Translations under genes and position numbers: made by a program
The notes under the pieces: generated by a model
What the model was told of the DNA's origin: nothing
Database searches by the model: none
Seen by the model: the letters and a program-made list of their open reading frames with translations, nothing else
NCBI GenBank assembly: GCA_022570885.1
Contig: JACZYW010000005.1
Coordinates: 1-33,650, forward strand
Origin: Chloroflexota bacterium
GTDB taxonomy: Bacteria > Chloroflexota > Dehalococcoidia > DSTF01 > RBG-16-68-14
Reading direction: 5' to 3'
Length of the DNA stretch: 33,650 nucleotides
Shown here: piece after piece, positions 8,834 through 22,234 of the stretch
Position numbering within the stretch: position 1 is the stretch's first letter
Layout: each line of letters begins with the position of its first letter

Positions 8834-8877
8834 GGTGCAGTGCCCGACCGCGGTTAAATGCGGCCGGGCACTGCACC
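8834..8877 (+). promoter_or_regulatory. Large intercistronic stem-loop (17 of 18 bp paired, 8-nt loop)
   Basis: GGTGCAGTGCCCGACCGC / GCGGCCGGGCACTGCACC around GGTTAAAT, 6 nt after the propeller stop codon; no U-tract. Confidence 0.7.
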
Positions 8878-8908
8878 GGTGGAGAGACGATGTGAGAGGA
8901 GAACAGTG

Positions 8909-9418
8909 ATGGCAGGCACCCGCGCAGAAGGATCAGGCATCGCTCTTGTTGCAATACTCGTCGCAATCGTCGCTCTGGTCGCGGCGGCATGCGGCGGATC
9001 AACGTCTGGCGGTTCCGCCCCGGCACCGACATCGCCCGCAGCCGACACACCCATGAACGATTCTCCAACGGCGGCGGACCCGATGGACGGTCCTGCCTCG
9101 TCGAATCCTTCTAGGATAGAGATTGAGGCGAGGGACAATATTTTCAGCGTCCAGACGGCTCCAGGAGTTCCTGGAACGATCGAGGCCTCTGCCAACACAG
9201 ACTTCACAGTGAGATTGGTTAACGAAGGTGTTCTCCCACACAACATCGCCTTCTTCACGAAGGAAGGGGGCGCCCTCCTCGCCGAAGGTGCAAACGGCCC
9301 CATCCTCCTGGAAGGAGAGGCGAGGTCGATCACCTTCAAGACGCCTGCTGCCGGTACGTACTTCTTCCTGTGCACGGTGCATCCACTTGAGATGATCGGT
9401 GAGTTTGTCGTCAAATAG
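8909..9418 (+). CDS. Cupredoxin (plastocyanin-like) lipoprotein
   Basis: Lipobox VAAACGGS; type-1 copper ligand pattern VLPHNIAFF ... YFFLCTVHPLEMIGEFVV. Confidence 0.85.
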   Translation: MAGTRAEGSGIALVAILVAIVALVAAACGGSTSGGSAPAPTSPAADTPMNDSPTAADPMDGPASSNPSRIEIEARDNIFSVQTAPGVPGTIEASANTDFTVRLVNEGVLPHNIAFFTKEGGALLAEGANGPILLEGEARSITFKTPAAGTYFFLCTVHPLEMIGEFVVK

Positions 9419-9438
9419 CGCGCCCAGATGAATTCGAG

Positions 9439-9552
9439 ATGCTAAAGGGTAGCCAAGTGCAGAATGCTGTTGCGTCCGGCGAAGCCCTCGAAGCGATCGC
9501 GGCGTGTATTGACCTACTCGCTGAAGATCATAGCTCCGACGACGGGCAATGA
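9439..9552 (+). CDS. Possible 37-aa small protein overlapping the next gene by ATGA
   Basis: MLKGSQVQNAVASGEALEAIAACIDLLAEDHSSDDGQ; its TGA overlaps the ATG of the downstream lipoprotein gene. Confidence 0.3.
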   Translation: MLKGSQVQNAVASGEALEAIAACIDLLAEDHSSDDGQ

Positions 9553-10151
9553 ATCCGATAGCCCTCCGGGTCGTTGCGGCTACAGCGGTTGCCGCGGCAA
9601 TTCTCGCTGCCGCGTGCGGGAGCGCGCCTGCCGCACCATCGGACGCCCCCGAAACCACATCTCCCTCGTCCGAGACGCCGTCCGCACAGGTCGTGACGGA
9701 CACGCCGGCGAACTCCAGTCAGCCAACCGCGGGCCCGGGGGCTGATCAGGCCTACGTCCCAGAGCGCAGCATAGACACTGAGGAGAAGCGCCTGAATGTG
9801 ACGCTCAATGGCGAGACGGTATACATCCGGAACGGAAGTCAGGTGTTCCTTGGCGATGGCTTGGCTGTTGAGATCTTCGTCGACCCCTATCCCCCTTCGA
9901 CCCTGCGCACGTGGGTGGATCTCTATCTGACGCGGGATGGTGAGCCAGTCACAGACGCCAGTATGGGGATCGAGTACGACATGCTGGCAATGGTCCATGG
10001 CCCCTTCTCGGGCGTGGCGGAGAAGCTCGGAGGCGGCCACTACCTCTTCACGCTGGACTACATCATGTTTGGTCCCTGGGACCAGGCGGTCACCATCCGG
10101 ATCGGGCTGGAGCGGATCAGATTTCCGATCGTCTTGGTCGCGTACCCCTGA
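9549..10151 (+). CDS. FixH/YtkA-like domain lipoprotein
   Basis: Lipobox AAACGSAP; C-terminal Ig-like strands (LAVEIFVDPYPPSTLRTWVDLYLTRDGEPVTDASMGIEYDM...GPFSGVAEKLGGGHYLF). Confidence 0.55.
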   Translation: MNPIALRVVAATAVAAAILAAACGSAPAAPSDAPETTSPSSETPSAQVVTDTPANSSQPTAGPGADQAYVPERSIDTEEKRLNVTLNGETVYIRNGSQVFLGDGLAVEIFVDPYPPSTLRTWVDLYLTRDGEPVTDASMGIEYDMLAMVHGPFSGVAEKLGGGHYLFTLDYIMFGPWDQAVTIRIGLERIRFPIVLVAYP

Positions 10152-10164
10152 GGGGGCGTGAGAC

Positions 10165-11208
10165 ATGCCGGCCTGGATGCGGCGTACCCGAAGAGTCGCG
10201 ATTGTCATCACCGTCGCGATGGTGGCGCTGCTCCTGTGGCAGACGGTCGCGGCTCAGCCGGCATCGGCTCACGGCAAGGACCTCGACATCGCCGTCACGC
10301 CGCTGATTCCAGACCCGGGCCAACCGCTCCTGCGGCTCTATCGCGTCCATGTCGTGTACGCGAATGATCTCGAACCCGTGGAGGGCGCGACCGTCGTGCT
10401 TACGGCACGGCGCGAAGATGGCACGTCCGCTTTTCCGGCGTTGGAGCTGACAGAGGTGGACAACGGCGATGGTCTCTATGTTGGGGAGGCCGTCTTCGCC
10501 CGCTTCGGCGTCTGGGAGATGCAATTGAGCGTACAGGCGGCTGTCGGTCAGGGCGAAGGCAGCGTGACGTTCACCGACGATATCCGCCCAGGAGCGCTCG
10601 GCCCGGACCAAGAAGCTGCCCTGCGCGCGGAGGCTGAACGGGTCATTAAGCTCCAGCTTTCCTTCGGGTTCGGCTGGTGGCCCGACGTTGTCAATATTGC
10701 GATGCGGATCCTCCATTCCATGGCGGGCCTTGCCTATTTCGTCGTCACCGGCCTGGCGTTTAGCCTGGCGTGGCTCGGGATAACCTCGCGTCGCCTAGAC
10801 CTCCCGCGCCTGCTCGATCGCTTGTTCCTTCCGGCCGCGGCCACCAGCCTCGTGCTGCTTCTGGGCGCCGGACTCTACAGTGCTGCCTTTGATGCGCCGA
10901 TCACATTCCCGGGGATCTACGATATCTCAACCATGCGACGGATTCCGTATGGTGAAGCCTATCTCATAGCGTTTTTCGTCAAGGTCGCCTTATTCGTCAT
11001 GCTCGCGGTGCTGGCTGTCCGAATCAGCCGGACGCTCAGAGGATGGAACGCGAGCGACTCGACGCGTGCGAACGGCACGGTTGTCGCTAGGCTCAGGCGA
11101 GAGACGCTCTTGAGCACGGTAGTTGGCCTGGCCGTGGTGGCCGATGTCGCAGTCGTCATTTACTTGCACTACGTCAGCCACCTGGGTGTCTTTCTCCCCG
11201 ACGCATAG
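10165..11208 (+). CDS. YtkA-like periplasmic domain fused to CopD-like membrane domain
   Basis: Signal peptide, ASAHGKDLDIAVTP... Ig-like domain, then several TM helices with conserved His. Confidence 0.55.
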   Translation: MPAWMRRTRRVAIVITVAMVALLLWQTVAAQPASAHGKDLDIAVTPLIPDPGQPLLRLYRVHVVYANDLEPVEGATVVLTARREDGTSAFPALELTEVDNGDGLYVGEAVFARFGVWEMQLSVQAAVGQGEGSVTFTDDIRPGALGPDQEAALRAEAERVIKLQLSFGFGWWPDVVNIAMRILHSMAGLAYFVVTGLAFSLAWLGITSRRLDLPRLLDRLFLPAAATSLVLLLGAGLYSAAFDAPITFPGIYDISTMRRIPYGEAYLIAFFVKVALFVMLAVLAVRISRTLRGWNASDSTRANGTVVARLRRETLLSTVVGLAVVADVAVVIYLHYVSHLGVFLPDA

Positions 11209-11362
11209 TCATCGGCATCCCTGGGGCAACGGCCAGAACATCAGCTCTCCAGCGCCTTCCCGCTCACAAGGCCGGCCACCGTGTCCCGCGAATCACATGG
11301 CAGCGCGCAAGGACTCGAGGCTCGCGTCATCCTACCCTGGGCGACATAGGCTGCGCTGCGGC

Positions 11363-11380
11363 CCTACCAACTTCGGTAGG
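11363..11380. promoter_or_regulatory. Dyad CCTACC-aacttc-GGTAGG in the intergenic gap upstream of the 11516 lipoprotein
   Basis: Perfect 6-bp inverted repeat in a 307-bp intergenic gap. Confidence 0.25.
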
Positions 11381-11515
11381 TAGAAGCCCGCATCGAGACT
11401 ACTCGATTTCGCGCCAAGGCCCCCAAGGATCGGTGTTGTGCGATCCAGACGAACGGGCGATGATTGGAGTACGTGATTCCGAGTGGAGAGCGTTCTGCGG
11501 GAGTGCGTGGAAGCG

Positions 11516-12130
11516 ATGCTGCGATTCATCATCATCGGTCTCCTGGTAAGCGCCGCGTTCGGTCTCAGCGGTTGTGGTGGCAATGCGGGAGACGGTGCCG
11601 CCGGCGCAAGCACTGCGTCTCTGGATACGGGAGCGGCCACTGGAGCTGAGAACGCGATTGGGGATCTCTCAGTGCGCGATTTGATTCCGTTGCTGACGCG
11701 TCGTGGGGTTGGGCCCGGTGAGTCTGGCATCGACCTCACGTACGCGCCACAGGTTTTCTTTGAGGTCACCGGCCTTGCGCCGCCAGCCGAGATCGGTTCG
11801 CGACCAACCCTAGCCTTCATCCTGGCGGAAACCATCCATGAAGGGGACCTCGTGAGCGAACCACCAGCCGTGTTTCTGGAGCTGGAAGGTGGTGAACGCG
11901 TGCCTCCGTACAGCGCGCTGGTCACGGCGGAAGACCCGCATCATCGGACGGTTCGCCTATTATTTCCACAGCCAGACGGGTGGCTGATATCATCGCGCGC
12001 GACCGGTGGCGGAGACACGATGAGGCTTGTGGTTCCACGGCACGACGGGACTGTCTCTGCCGGGCGTATCTTCGAATGGCAGCTGCCTATCGATTTCGGA
12101 GGCGGCGCCGACGAAAGCGATAGTGAGTGA
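11516..12130 (+). CDS. Lipoprotein with HEG...HH domain shared with the CcdA-like protein (unknown function)
   Basis: Lipobox FGLSGCGGN; PTLAFILAETIHEGDL...EDPHHRTVRLLFPQPDG. Confidence 0.7.
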   Translation: MLRFIIIGLLVSAAFGLSGCGGNAGDGAAGASTASLDTGAATGAENAIGDLSVRDLIPLLTRRGVGPGESGIDLTYAPQVFFEVTGLAPPAEIGSRPTLAFILAETIHEGDLVSEPPAVFLELEGGERVPPYSALVTAEDPHHRTVRLLFPQPDGWLISSRATGGGDTMRLVVPRHDGTVSAGRIFEWQLPIDFGGGADESDSE

Positions 12131-12134
12131 CGCT

Positions 12135-12347
12135 ATGAAGTCCATCTCCCTACGACTGGCGCTCATCCTATCCCTCATCACCGCAGCGCAGATACTCTCG
12201 TTCCGCACGGCACTGGCGCACACGGGAGAAGATGCGAGCGCGGGGCACATGATCGTTGAATTTGGTCTCTGGGGCTTCGGCGTCGCCGGCGTGCTTATGA
12301 CAATCGTGGGGGTCTTCTGGATTCGGAACAAGGTGAGGCCACGGTGA
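12135..12347 (+). CDS. Small membrane protein (70 aa; signal peptide plus one TM)
   Basis: MKSISLRLALILSLITAAQILSFRTALAHTGEDASAGHMIVEFGLWGFGVAGVLMTIVGVFWIRNKVRPR; GTGA overlap with the next gene. Confidence 0.65.
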   Translation: MKSISLRLALILSLITAAQILSFRTALAHTGEDASAGHMIVEFGLWGFGVAGVLMTIVGVFWIRNKVRPR

Positions 12348-13813
12348 GCCGCGCTACTACCGCGACTACCGGATCTGTTGCGGTCGGGATCGGTCGTCTC
12401 GGGTTCGGGCGACCTTCCAGCACGTTCGTCGTCTTTGCGGTGGCTGTCGGCGTGATGCTAGGCGTGTGGCTGCTTTTAGCGTTGCTGTACAGCGGCATCG
12501 GAGGCGGTCGCAATGTTGTGGAAGCGCGCGGCGTGATCTCAGCGGTCACGAGCACCCGCGCGAGTTCGGGAAATTTTGAGGTACAAGGCATTCTCGCCAC
12601 CGCTGAGTACTTCAGGGTCACGGACCGCAGCGATGAGTTCTTCAGTCTAGCACCCGAGGAAAACCTTGCGACGCTCGCGACCAGTCCGCAGGCCTTTGAT
12701 GTCTTCGATGAGAGTGCAGATGCCCTCGCTGTGGATCCGGAGCGGACGTTGCCCGTGCTGCTGGTGGTTGACGTTCACGAGGGTGAACTCCCGGAGCCTG
12801 AACTCTGGGTCCCCGCTGTGTCGATGAGTGTCAACGGGGTGCTGCTGCCACCGGCCCAGACCTACAGTGTGGCATTCCGATCCGAACACCACCAGACGGT
12901 GGCGCTGCAGTTCGCGCGTCATGATGCCGAAGGGAATCTCTTTCTCGATGACAGTGATGGAACGCTGAGCCTGACAGTTCCCAACATTGAATCCGGAAGC
13001 GGTGAGCTGACGGTTGATTGGTCATTGCCTCTTAGATATCCGGCAGCCGAGGCTGGCGGCGTGTTCCCCGGTAGCGTTGCCACACTAGGCAGCGTCCTCG
13101 CTGTGATGGCCGGCTTGCTCGTCATATTCTCGCCATGCGTCGTGCACATGACAGCATACTTTCTCCCAGTCATTACCGGCCTTGGGATGCAAGAGATTAG
13201 GGCCCGGAAAGATGATGTTCGTTTCCGCGCGCACGTGGCACTGTCGGGCGTTGCCTTTGTCACCGGATTCGTATTGCTGTACACAGCGTTCGGCGTGGCG
13301 GCAGGATTTGCGGGGCAGTTCTTCTCGAACACAGCCAAGCTGGAGCCCTACATCTTTCCACTCCGGATCATCACCGGCACAGTCGTGATCTATCTGGCGA
13401 TTCAGACACTCGGCTTGTTCCGCCTTCCCTTCATCGTTTCGCTGCGATTGCCCGGCCGGCCGCACGAGGTGCGAAGTCCGCGGCAAGGATACGTCGCCGC
13501 CGCGATCGCCGGCATGAGCATCTCCGTCGGTTGCTTGGCCTGTGTGGGCGGGACGCTGCTGGCGTCATTACTGATCTACGCGGGCGCGTCGAGCTCGCCG
13601 GTTGTGGGTGGACTGACGCTGTTCCTCTTCTCCATCGGGATGAGCATCCCGTTTCTTCTTGTAGCATTCGCCTTTGAGAAGATGGTGCCGCAGATTAACA
13701 AAGTGTGGCCCTTGCTCCGCTATTCATCGGCGGTCGCCGGCGCCGTCATGCTGGTAGTAGGGCTGCTGATCCTCAGTGGGAATGATTCCGTCTTCGAGCG
13801 GCTCGTGGTGTAA
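12344..13813 (+). CDS. CcdA/DsbD-like thiol-disulfide transporter with N-terminal periplasmic HEG...HH domain
   Basis: FSPCVVHMTAYFLPVITG and SVGCLACVGGTLLASLL TM Cys motifs; N-terminal domain LPVLLVVDVHEGEL...SEHHQTVALQF; GTG start. Confidence 0.8.
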   Translation: MSRATTATTGSVAVGIGRLGFGRPSSTFVVFAVAVGVMLGVWLLLALLYSGIGGGRNVVEARGVISAVTSTRASSGNFEVQGILATAEYFRVTDRSDEFFSLAPEENLATLATSPQAFDVFDESADALAVDPERTLPVLLVVDVHEGELPEPELWVPAVSMSVNGVLLPPAQTYSVAFRSEHHQTVALQFARHDAEGNLFLDDSDGTLSLTVPNIESGSGELTVDWSLPLRYPAAEAGGVFPGSVATLGSVLAVMAGLLVIFSPCVVHMTAYFLPVITGLGMQEIRARKDDVRFRAHVALSGVAFVTGFVLLYTAFGVAAGFAGQFFSNTAKLEPYIFPLRIITGTVVIYLAIQTLGLFRLPFIVSLRLPGRPHEVRSPRQGYVAAAIAGMSISVGCLACVGGTLLASLLIYAGASSSPVVGGLTLFLFSIGMSIPFLLVAFAFEKMVPQINKVWPLLRYSSAVAGAVMLVVGLLILSGNDSVFERLVV

Positions 13814-13884: not shown

Positions 13885-14571
13885 GTGTCAGTACCCATGA
13901 AGAGCCTGCCCAAGGTTGTTGCGTTCCTCGGCATCATCGCGGTGGTCAGCGCGGTCGGAGTCTTCATGTTGCGCCAGGCGGGGTATCTCTCGGAAAGGGC
14001 GACCATGGACGCTGGTGGAATGGCGGCCCGCGATCTGCCCATCGTCACTATCCTCCCGAAGGACGCCATCCCAGCCATCTTCGAGCCCGAGTTCCTTCCG
14101 GCGACAGACGGCGGGGCCCAACTTCACGACGACGACCTCGTCCTCGGCGTCAGCATCAACGGTGACGCGCGCGCTTACGGAGTGGCCTATCTCAGCGGTC
14201 ACGAGATCGTCAACGACACCGTGGGAGGCCGGCCGATTGCGGTCACCTGGTGACCGGTCTGCTTTTCGGGCATCGTGTATGCCCGCGAAGTCCAGGGGAC
14301 AGTCCTCACATTCGGCGTATCCGGCAAGCTCATGATGAACGCCCTGGTCATGTACGACCGTGAGACCGACTCACTCTGGAGCCAGTACCTGAGCTCTGCT
14401 GTGGACGGCATCTACGCAGGGACTGATCTGGAAGTCGTGTCCGCGTCGCTCGTCACCTGGAGCACTTGGTTGGAACGCCACCCCGATACCCTCGTCCTGG
14501 ATCAGGGCGGCCGCCGAATCGATCCCTGCGACTCCTACTACGGCGGGCGCGGGGCCTGCGAGTGGGATTGA
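13885..14571 (+). CDS. DUF3179 protein, candidate selenoprotein (in-frame TGA 14251-14253 replacing the first Cys of CPxC)
   Basis: DLVLGVSINGDARAYGVAYLSGHEIVNDTVGGRPIAVTW-[TGA]-PVCFSGIVYAREVQGTVLTFGVSGKLMMNALVMYDRETDSLWSQ; both halves are in the same frame and family-like. Confidence 0.7.
14267..14285 (+). promoter_or_regulatory. Candidate bacterial SECIS hairpin
   Basis: Perfect 7-bp stem CGGGCAT / ATGCCCG, loop CGTGT with G at position 2; 20 nt between TGA and the loop. Confidence 0.5.
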
Positions 14572-18525: not shown

Positions 18526-18915
18526 AAGCTGGGCGGCGCAGAACTAGTAGCTGAACACCCGACTCCGACATATTTGTACGATACCTCTTACACACCTACT
18601 GTCACAAGCGCTCATATGGTCAATGTGATCCCCTTTACGTTTGCATGACCTACCTCCAAGAAGGGGCCGAATGGCCCTACGCACACGGGTCCGTTTGTCA
18701 CATCGAAGGTTGCGCATGGGAAGGGGCTCGACCCCCTCCGTTTTGGGGAAGCACGGGCGGATCATGGCGGCAGGAATCTGACGTTGACCACGCGAAGCCC
18801 CTGCTACCTGGTGACCCCGGTGTGGGGTGGCAAAACCCCATCCGTATCTGGAAGGTTGACCTGCTGAGCTGTGTGGGCCAGCCTTGAGGTAGCATCTCCT
18901 CTCGGAGGTCTGGCC

Positions 18916-19065
18916 TTGATCAGCTATCTTCCCCTCTTCTGCGCTCTCCTCCGTAGCGCCCTGGGCTCCCGCCAGCAGCTCCTGTTCGAGAACCTCGCTC
19001 TCCGTCAGCAGGTCGCCGTCCTGTCCCGTCAGTCGCGCCGACCGAGGCTATGGAGCGGCGTGGCC
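18916..19065 (+). pseudogene. N-terminal remnant of an integrase-core (DDE) transposase
   Basis: LFCALLRSALGSRQQLLFENLALRQQVAVLSRQSRRPRLWSG, a typical N terminus of these transposases; homology then stops. Confidence 0.6.
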
Positions 19066-19254
19066 GACCAATGCAAGTCCTGGGCGACGCACGCGACCGG
19101 TCATCCCGAGATGTACGTCGCACAGCCCACGAGGCTGTTGAAAAAGTCTGGTCCGTAGGTGTGGTGTGGCGTATGCTCGCCTTAGGAAGAGGCGGGGGGT
19201 GAGGAGGCTGCCAGATGATGGGCCACCGCACCAAGCGCTTATTGTTTTTGGGAG

Positions 19255-19359
19255 CGGGAAGAGGGGATTCGAACCCCCAGCCCCTCCTCGGCAATTGGGA
19301 TCCGGCTCTGCAAGCTGCTAACAATTAGGGGGTCGCGGGGCGATGCAATTAGGTGGTCG
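19255..19359 (-). repeat. tRNA-Gly(GCC)-like 3' fragment plus arm sequence, inverted relative to the copy at 21.1-21.25 kb
   Basis: Reverse complement reads cgaccacctaattgcatcgccccgcgaccccctaattgttagcagcttgcagagccggatcccaattgccgaggaggggctgggggttcgaatcccctcttcccgctcc. Confidence 0.8.
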
Positions 19360-19489
19360 GGCGTAACTGACGCTGGCGGAGCATCTGCTACCCAAGTATC
19401 TCGCGCTAAGCGCTGTGCTTCACGAATGGCGAGCTGAGCGAAAGCAGCCCAATTATGTGCTGTTCTTCAGCCCGCCTCGCGCGAATCAC

Positions 19490-20129
19490 GGCACCGGCGA
19501 CCAAGGGAAGACCTGGTCGGTTCCGGGATTTTCGGTGAGGCGAGTTTCGTCGGAGCCGTCTGACCCCATCACGTAAACCTCTCTGTTGCCATCGCGTTTG
19601 GACTCGAACGCTATAAGGCTGCCATCGGGCGACCACGCCAGGCTAAAGTCATCCAGGGGGCATCGGTCAAGCGCACCTCTTCAGAGCCATCAGCGTTCAT
19701 AACGTAGATGTCGGAGTTGCCGTTCCGCATTGCCGTGAAAGCAATGCGAGAACCATCCGGCGACCATGTCGGCCCTGAATCGCTCCCAGAATCATTCGTC
19801 AGATTTCGCGGGTCTGCTCCGTTCGCCGCCATCACGTATATTTCATTGTTCCCATCACGGTCAGAGCGGAAGACGATCTGGTCACCGGTCGGGAACCACC
19901 TGGCTTCCCAGTCCATCCCCAGGCTATCAGTTAGATTAATGGTCGGGGCATAGGTCCCCTCCGTCGGCGCTTGCCTCAGTGCCCATGAGCCGCATCTCCC
20001 TCGAAGCGTTCGACAGGCGACTAGCTTGTCCCGCCATGTAGGTCCGCCGGACGTAATCTTCACCCAGAGACGGCACCGGAGAAGCCATAGGGTGATGCCG
20101 AGGCCCGCGATCAGCAGCCCTGATCTCAC
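19490..20129 (-). pseudogene. PD40/TolB-like beta-propeller protein, frameshift at about 19650
   Basis: QIVFRSDRDGNNEIYVMAANGADPRNLTND...PTWSPDGSRIAFTAMRNGNSDIYVMNADGSEEVRLTDAP, then DFSLAWSPDGSLIAFESKRDGNREVYVMGSDGSDETRLTENPG in another frame. Confidence 0.7.
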
Positions 20130-21096
20130 CCATGTGATGTTATCGCTCCAATCTTGCCAAGCCTTCGAACTCCAGCGAGTGGTGGAACGCTACGGCAATA
20201 GGTAGCTGGGACGACTGGGGCGCGGGCTGAACCGGCCCGGTGCTCAGGTTTGGTGGCCGAGAAAGGGACAGCGACTGTGGGATTGGAGGCGTCGTTGATT
20301 GCGCTCCTTTCCTTCGCTACAGTGTCTGCTGGACAACGGCCGAATCGCGTGAAAATCCTCTGGTCTGCCCTGTTTTCAGAGAATCAGAGGACCTGTGCCG
20401 GAATGGGTCGGCCTGGGGGCGCTAATTGAATCTGACTGGGGCTTGTTCAGAGGTGTTCCTGTCGAGAGTGCTTTGGAGCCTCTGGTCCTCCAGGACAGTC
20501 CAGCTTCCTCTGCCACGGGAACCGACGAGAGCAGCATGGTGACCTGCCCCCATAAATGCTACCACTCGCTATGTTAGTCTCGGTATGGCTGGCAGGAAGT
20601 TCGAAACCACGCGGGCTGTGGGTATCATAGCCTCAAATTCGAACTCCTAGAATCGCGCTCAGTCCGGACTAGGGTGAATCTCGGCTCGCTAAGGCTAAAT
20701 GTCGGCCGAATGACCCCAGATCTGGTTCGAATCCTGTTGGGTCATCTGTCACTCTGACGGCCCGGACGCTGTCGCCGGGCCCTCGCAGGGTAGATTCCCT
20801 CGGACGGGGTGAGGGGCCCCTCCGGGCGGCGTCGGGGCTTCTGGAATGGTTCTGGGGCGGCTGCTGGGAAACCGAGAGGCAAGGTCAGTCGGCGAGCGGA
20901 GGCTAGTCTCAGACCTCGACAGGAAGAGGCAGGAATCGTCCGGCGACCTATGCGTTGCCATGTAGTCGCGGACCAGCAGCTTCAGGCGAACGCGCTATGA
21001 CCTCGCACAAAAAGCCAGCGCACAAGGTGGAGTTGGGCGACTTGTCCCCGTTCGCCAGCCGTCTTGTAGAGCGATCTGAAGGCCATCGTTAGGCCA

Positions 21097-21200
21097 GACC
21101 ACCTAACTGACACGCCCCGCGACCCCCTAATTGTTAGCAGCTTGCATCGACCGAAATAGGAGTGGTAAGTTCGGTAGCAGCTTGCAGAGCCGGATCCCAA
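21097..21200 (+). repeat. Arm-like sequence preceding att copy 2, shared with 19296-19359 in inverted orientation
   Basis: cgccccgcgaccccctaattgttagcagcttgca...gagccggatcccaa shared; a 40-nt extra segment is present here. Confidence 0.75.
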
Positions 21201-21286
21201 TTGCCAAGGAGGGGGTCGGGAGTTCGAATCTCCTCTTCCGCTCCAAAAGAGCAACTAGGCGCACGGCTCGTATCTAGATCTGGCCG
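21201..21286 (+). repeat. att-like direct repeat, copy 2 (tRNA-Gly 3' half, 5' half absent)
   Basis: 85 of 86 identical to 4447-4532. Confidence 0.9.
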
Positions 21287-21321
21287 TTTTTCGGTCAGAG
21301 GAGGAGGTGGGCCGTGCGCCT
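21257..21321. promoter_or_regulatory. Nested inverted repeats downstream of the tRNA fragment
   Basis: Outer AGGCGCACGGC / GCCGTGCGCCT (11 bp); inner CTGGCCG-TTTTT-CGGTCAG (7 bp with one G:U). Confidence 0.5.
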
Positions 21322-21496
21322 TGACGGAGAAGGAACTCGCAGAAAAACTGCGCTCCAAAGGCTACGCAGTCTGGCAGCACTGGAGCCGCAATGACGTGTT
21401 TTAGCTTTGGCTGTGCGGCCGGCGACCTCCTAATTGGCAGGCCCTGCGAGGCCTCCGCCGCTGACCCTGACTGGGCAGCCAAATCGGAACGGGTGG

Positions 21497-21535
21497 CTCG
21501 AACTCGCGACCCTCTGCTTGGGAAGCAGATGCTCA
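21497..21535 (-). pseudogene. Degenerate tRNA-Gly(CCC)-like fragment
   Basis: Reverse complement gagcatctgcttcccaagcagagggtcgcgagttcgag: anticodon arm TCTGC-TTCCCAA-GCAGA and T-arm-like sequence; no matching acceptor or T stem. Confidence 0.55.
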
Positions 21536-21731
21536 GTAGCCTTCACTATGCAGACATAGTGTTCCCGCCAGACGTCACGGACAGCGAGGATACTGGCGTG
21601 GGCTGGGAAGCGCCGTCTCTCTCTGGAACGCGAAGCTTATCGGCCGCGTCAGCGAGACGGGTCAGGAGTGGCTAAGAGGATGCGTCGCACGAAGTCAGGA
21701 CTGAGCGGATATCCTCAGCCTGGCAGACGAG

Positions 21732-22043
21732 CTACCGTACTCGGCGACTCTGGGAACCTTTCAGGTTCTTGATCGTCAGCTTGGCACCCCTCTTCTTGGC
21801 GATCTCGACCGCCTTACTAAGGTCGTTTTGGGGCACGCGTAGCTCCTTCCTAGCGTTCCCCTGCGTCTGTAGACGGGCTATCGCCCGGCCGATCCGCTTG
21901 GGATCCGAACTCCGCTCTACCTCGGTGGCAATGTTCCCCTTCTTGACATCGAGCTTACGCTTCCCGCTGATCGACACTTCTGTGCGTCCACGGGAGCCCG
22001 CCACGCGGCCTGCGATTCGGGCTTGCTGCTGTTGCTTCGGCAT
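21732..22043 (-). CDS. Small basic conserved-looking hypothetical protein (103 aa)
   Basis: MPKQQQQARIAGRVAGSRGRTEVSISGKRKLDVKKGNIATEVERSSDPKRIGRAIARLQTQGNARKELRVPQNDLSKAVEIAKKRGAKLTIKNLKGSQSRRVR; GGAGGG ribosome-binding site. Confidence 0.6.
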   Translation of the reverse strand: MPKQQQQARIAGRVAGSRGRTEVSISGKRKLDVKKGNIATEVERSSDPKRIGRAIARLQTQGNARKELRVPQNDLSKAVEIAKKRGAKLTIKNLKGSQSRRVR

Positions 22044-22234
22044 CTGACCCTCCATGTGCTCCTGGTCCGTCGAACCTGTCTGGGGTGATGATACACGAAA
22101 CACTGAGGACGACGGAACAAGATTCAACCGGCGGGGAACTCACTGGCATGCAACGGAACCTCGGCCGACGCCAGCGAAGCGCATTTCGGATGAGTACACC
22201 ATTGGCACATGGTGCCTAGAGCGCTGGGGGCAGA

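Follow-up and report, generated by a model that had tools for sequence, protein, structure and literature searches.

The window (the whole stretch of 33,650 nucleotides from a Chloroflexota bacterium that was analysed) almost certainly encodes an exported or membrane-anchored DUF3179 protein in which selenocysteine (Sec) is inserted, by means of SelB and a SECIS element, at the first cysteine of the CPxC motif. The resulting UPVC sequence would presumably act in redox chemistry. This joint reading was derived from sequence comparison, and the features on which it is built are collected in Table 1.

Table 1. Features of the selenoprotein gene and its upstream neighbour (positions in the window).
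Feature	Position	Strand	Basis
DsbD_TM/CcdA-like membrane protein, upstream neighbour	12344..13813	+	Pfam PF02683, E=4e-20
DUF3179 (PF11376, first lobe only) predicted selenoprotein gene	13897..14571	+	Pfam match, conservation, AlphaFold2
TGA predicted to encode Sec, the U of U-P-V-C	14251..14253	+	Homologue column
Partner Cys codon TGC of UPVC	14260..14262	+	Sequence; Cys nearly invariant in DUF3179
Predicted bSECIS hairpin CGGGCAT-CGTGT-ATGCCCG	14267..14285	+	Fold; 93% vs 48% pairing, compensatory changes

The reading frame and its internal TGA

When the frame 13885-14571 was translated with TGA read as U, it contained a single internal TGA, at 14251-14253, and was open on both sides of it until the TGA at 14569-14571. 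Letters and coordinates of the frame and of its in-frame TGA agree with the first-pass annotation, which had the open reading frame begin at 13885; its stop and frame stand, and as a start ATG 13897 (MKSLPKVVAFLG..., the beginning of a signal anchor) is likelier than GTG 13885, which is also possible. The Pfam profile PF11376 matched across the TGA (residues 59-214, E=1.4e-58, 199 bits against a cut-off of 27), and the gene thus exceeds the gathering score for membership in the family. Positions 1-161 of the 292 in the profile were matched, so that the gene does not reach the two-lobe full length, an architecture that is usual in DUF3179 and not a condition of Pfam membership. A search for the second DUF3179 lobe downstream of the gene gave nothing recognisable, and the possibility that the TGA at 14569-14571 is another Sec codon was set aside because the frame beyond it holds no such lobe. 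Under the standard code, gene callers would split or shorten the gene at its internal TGA, and homologues in Chloroflexota, Poribacteria, Nitrospinota and other groups would be expected to be miscalled likewise.

Homologues carry TGA or a cysteine codon at the same column

The homologue sample combined 60 related genomes with 80 named loci of GTDB genomes. The column of the window TGA held TGA in 61 homologues, TGC or TGT in 54 and TAA or TAG in none, the pattern of Cys or TGA that the first-pass annotation had proposed to look for. Other codons at this column, mostly for Asp, Glu or Asn, belonged in those inspected to second-lobe matches or to distant members. The in-frame TGA is thus aligned with a cysteine of homologues, as in bacterial selenoprotein genes, and its placement at the first Cys of CPxC was borne out by the PF11376 match together with the homologue column. 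The nearest homologues in the tree were from Dehalococcoidia, and the tree required at least seven changes between Sec and Cys, four of them forced by well-supported branches. A divergent DUF3179 subfamily from the same taxonomic family (35-37% identity) also has TGA at this column, in the context VTF-U-IRC or VTF-U-ILC. Three loci of this subfamily (L140, L141 and L142, genomes G002 and G004) read HHVAND...VTF-TGA-IRC/ILC, and there selA was absent from the search results or found only as a fragment.

The genome to which the window belongs encodes three further DUF3179 proteins, all without stops and with Cys at the column. These Cys-type paralogues and the missing second lobe of the window gene are what one might find if the gene were decaying or mis-assembled and its TGA either a true stop from a nonsense mutation or an artefact of sequencing. 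About 60 homologues with TGA at the very same column and none with TAA or TAG argue against this, as does the covariation of the hairpin described below. Degradation of the gene at many positions, which had been named as a ground for giving up the selenoprotein reading, was not seen: within the domain, the gene kept 44 of the 47 positions that are conserved among the other TGA homologues, and the lobe was free of frameshifts. Taken together, a nonsense mutation or error is very improbable.

A covarying SECIS hairpin follows the TGA

The hairpin lies exactly where the first-pass annotation had placed it, and consists of a perfect 7-bp stem and a loop (14274-14278) that begins after a gap of 20 nt from the TGA and whose second base is G, followed by U. 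The published bSECIS model has a spacing of 16-37 nt, a loop of 3-9 nt, a G as first or second loop base and a minimum free energy (MFE) of at most -7.5 kcal/mol (PMC13188914); the hairpin fits this model, in line with the fit to bacterial SECIS rules that the first-pass annotation had claimed. Folding of the 31-nt hairpin core gave -15 kcal/mol (z=-3.7), and the exact hairpin was found once in the window and in 0/100 shuffles. Stems of 7 bp that obey the rules are not very rare after TGA in the G+C-rich DNA of the window (5 of the 476 TGAs on the + strand), so the hairpin alone amounts to evidence at about the 1% level and the comparative data carry the case for Sec.

When the seven stem positions were compared among homologues, 93% of cells were paired in the TGA forms and 48% in the Cys forms, related sequences not being independent in this count; all seven pairs were present in 46/60 TGA homologues and in 0/54 Cys homologues. 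In controls, versions of the stem slid along the sequence gave 25-67% pairing and those with shuffled 3' arms at most 83%. Compensatory changes were frequent enough for the TGA homologues to show the arm pairs GGGCAT/ATGCCC, GGCCAT/ATGGCC, GGCTAT/ATAGCC, GGGAAT/ATTCCC, GAGCAT/ATGCTC, GGCGAT/ATCGCC and GGGCGT/ACGCCC. The mean MFE of the 37 nt past the codon was -10.8 kcal/mol in TGA homologues and -7.3 kcal/mol in Cys homologues (p=2.5e-7, again with related sequences that are not independent). A bSECIS at the correct spacing that is both conserved and covarying, as in bacterial selenoprotein genes, is thus present.

The stem also leaves its mark on the protein. In the TGA forms the pair of residues at +6 and +10 from the Sec is mostly G/A, G/S, A/G or A/S, and the two covary since it is their codons that make up the stem of the SECIS; in the Cys forms +10 is usually D or E. 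Positions 14260-14300 of the window and the corresponding region of the homologues offer a clear example of RNA constraining protein, in which a strongly covarying SECIS restricts the residues of the very protein that contains it.

Selenocysteine machinery

The genome of the window is a 2.34 Mb draft that is 91% complete. The first-pass annotation had proposed a search of the source genome for the sel genes, and selA (564 bits), selB (322 bits, with a coding frame that runs off contig C64) and selD were present, together with a partial selC at a contig end. The selD gene (L018 1483-2529, contig C232) itself has an in-frame TGA at 1531 in the context SCAGU-AGK, and a hairpin is predicted downstream of it. 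The tRNA-Sec, at the end of contig C59 (L016 1497-1568), has its 5' side cut, an anticodon loop CTTCAAA with the anticodon UCA, and a score of 49.1 bits against the gathering score of 47. This score was obtained when the locus was analysed by cmscan with the truncation recognised; in the search of the whole genome with the Rfam tRNA-Sec model it was below the cut-off, as were all other matches, most of them ordinary Ser, Leu and Arg tRNAs. That selC appears only in part, with its 5' end cut, in a draft assembly may be counted against the joint reading.

Full-length selA was found in 44/51 genomes with a TGA form and in 5/25 genomes with Cys forms only (Fisher p=2e-8). Two of the seven TGA-form genomes without a full selA match show selA fragments, and the gap in these seven is most plausibly due to incomplete MAGs.

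A UGA that is read through inside an otherwise open frame could also be recoded in another way, either genome-wide as Trp or Cys or by read-through with a near-cognate tRNA. The gene has only the one internal TGA, which sits at the Cys column, and it stops at a TGA of its own; the genome encodes the complete machinery for Sec, with a SelD that itself contains Sec, and a conserved SECIS would be superfluous for read-through. The probability that we give to such recoding is close to nil, lower even than that of a nonsense mutation or sequencing error.

Insertion of Sec, for which machinery and element are both seen in the sequence, would then proceed as follows. SelB with Sec-tRNA(UCA) would, judging from homology, bind the hairpin downstream of the UGA, which would then be read as Sec. 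The UPVC pair would most likely form an extracytoplasmic selenol/thiol redox centre (a selenenylsulfide), possibly re-reduced via the CcdA-like protein encoded directly upstream, a possible supplier of electrons to the selenoprotein.

Gene neighbourhood

Upstream of the selenoprotein gene, a cluster at 8858-13813 encodes a cupredoxin-like, two YtkA-like and the DsbD_TM/CcdA-like proteins, and looks like a set that deals with copper or redox chemistry in the extracytoplasmic space. When a conserved CcdA/YtkA/cupredoxin neighbourhood was sought around the homologous loci none was found, and the window's own locus, used as control, was matched. Further downstream, the region 18526-22234 (about 3.7 kb) has few convincing genes, with fragments that by eye resemble a TolB-like repeat protein and a transposase, and gave no tRNA or Rfam matches.

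A one-lobe member of a two-lobe family

The window protein starts with a signal-anchor helix, followed by a single DUF3179 lobe, and has 105 residues past the Sec, as compared to about 240 in nearly all homologues, which have a second lobe that lacks CPxC. Given the absence of this second lobe the window copy could be a truncated paralogue. One other one-lobe copy was found (L059 2001-2699, OY282442.1), on a Dehalococcoidia chromosome where a two-lobe Sec DUF3179 gene directly follows it, and it groups with the window gene (98/86 support), with its long branch (2.33) as a caveat.

The shortness of the protein and the long branch of this nearest one-lobe relative would both suit a situation where Sec is inserted into a relic without function, left by the duplication of a two-lobe selenoprotein. 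The end branch of the window gene is short (0.26), its conserved residues are kept and its hairpin is intact, and a single-domain fold is predicted at high confidence (core pLDDT of about 97 in the AlphaFold2 model of the lobe). The pair of genes in OY282442.1, in which another one-lobe Sec gene immediately precedes a two-lobe one, speaks in the same direction. A relic is thus unlikely, if clearly less so than a nonsense mutation or sequencing error.

Comparison with Rieske proteins and with known DUF3179 selenoproteins

Rieske ferredoxins were high-probability Foldseek matches of both one-lobe and two-lobe models (3gce, 5bok, 3c0d, 5cxm), with a probability of 0.90-1.00 for PDB 3gce and E-values of at least 0.03, none below 0.001. 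A profile comparison of DUF3179 with Rieske (hhalign) gave no support (probability 0.4% and 5.6%), and no DUF3179 match was obtained in a sequence search for PDB chains. With E-values above 0.03 and an empty profile comparison the Rieske likeness is a lead only.

Rieske boxes have the form CxH-x15-17-CxxH. As in Rieske ferredoxins, two loops around a beta-hairpin are involved in DUF3179, where the model and the alignment place the conserved His and the U/C-x-x-C 16 residues apart in the two loops flanking the hairpin, as H-x16-(U/C)-x2-C. Numbered from ATG 13897, these residues of the window protein are H102, U119 and C122. Unlike Rieske proteins, DUF3179 proteins have Ser or another non-Cys residue two positions before the His, and a Cys where the last His would stand, with (U/C)PxC instead of CxxH; the CxH...CxxH cluster ligands that mark a Rieske protein are thus not found in DUF3179. 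It is conceivable, although we hold it to be doubtful, that DUF3179 has a Rieske-like fold whose Fe-S site has been rebuilt to His/Cys/Cys and often His/Sec/Cys (H-x16-U-x2-C), with the window gene as the minimal, one-lobe version. In that case DUF3179 would be a Rieske scaffold bearing a redox or metal site that contains selenium. For this domain of unknown function the lead is a first, weak hint at the fold, a hint that could be tested on the one-lobe form as a small construct.

That DUF3179 proteins can contain Sec is not a new idea, as the first-pass annotation had suspected. The family appears in a published list of prokaryotic selenoproteins with the motif UxxC/T, in an entry that cites Zhang & Gladyshev 2007 and the Olavius algarvensis Delta 1 symbiont (PMC13188914), and its name is also in a second selenoprotein list (PMC9312934). 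The product name that the first-pass annotation had mentioned is likewise real, RefSeq using 'DUF3179 domain-containing (seleno)protein' (e.g. NZ_CP147842.1). These entries have the same domain as the window gene and indicate that NCBI already allows for Sec in the family; the examples are haloarchaeal plasmid genes and were compared by product name alone. In view of the published lists and the RefSeq name, the window gene adds a strongly supported member to an already known selenoprotein family. It shares with the published DUF3179 selenoproteins the Pfam family, a downstream bSECIS and the predicted position of Sec, where CPxC has its first Cys, and differs from them in coming from Chloroflexota and in having one lobe instead of two. 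With Sec in DUF3179 itself already on record, what is new is a Chloroflexota member, very strongly supported by the sequence evidence, with a one-lobe form.
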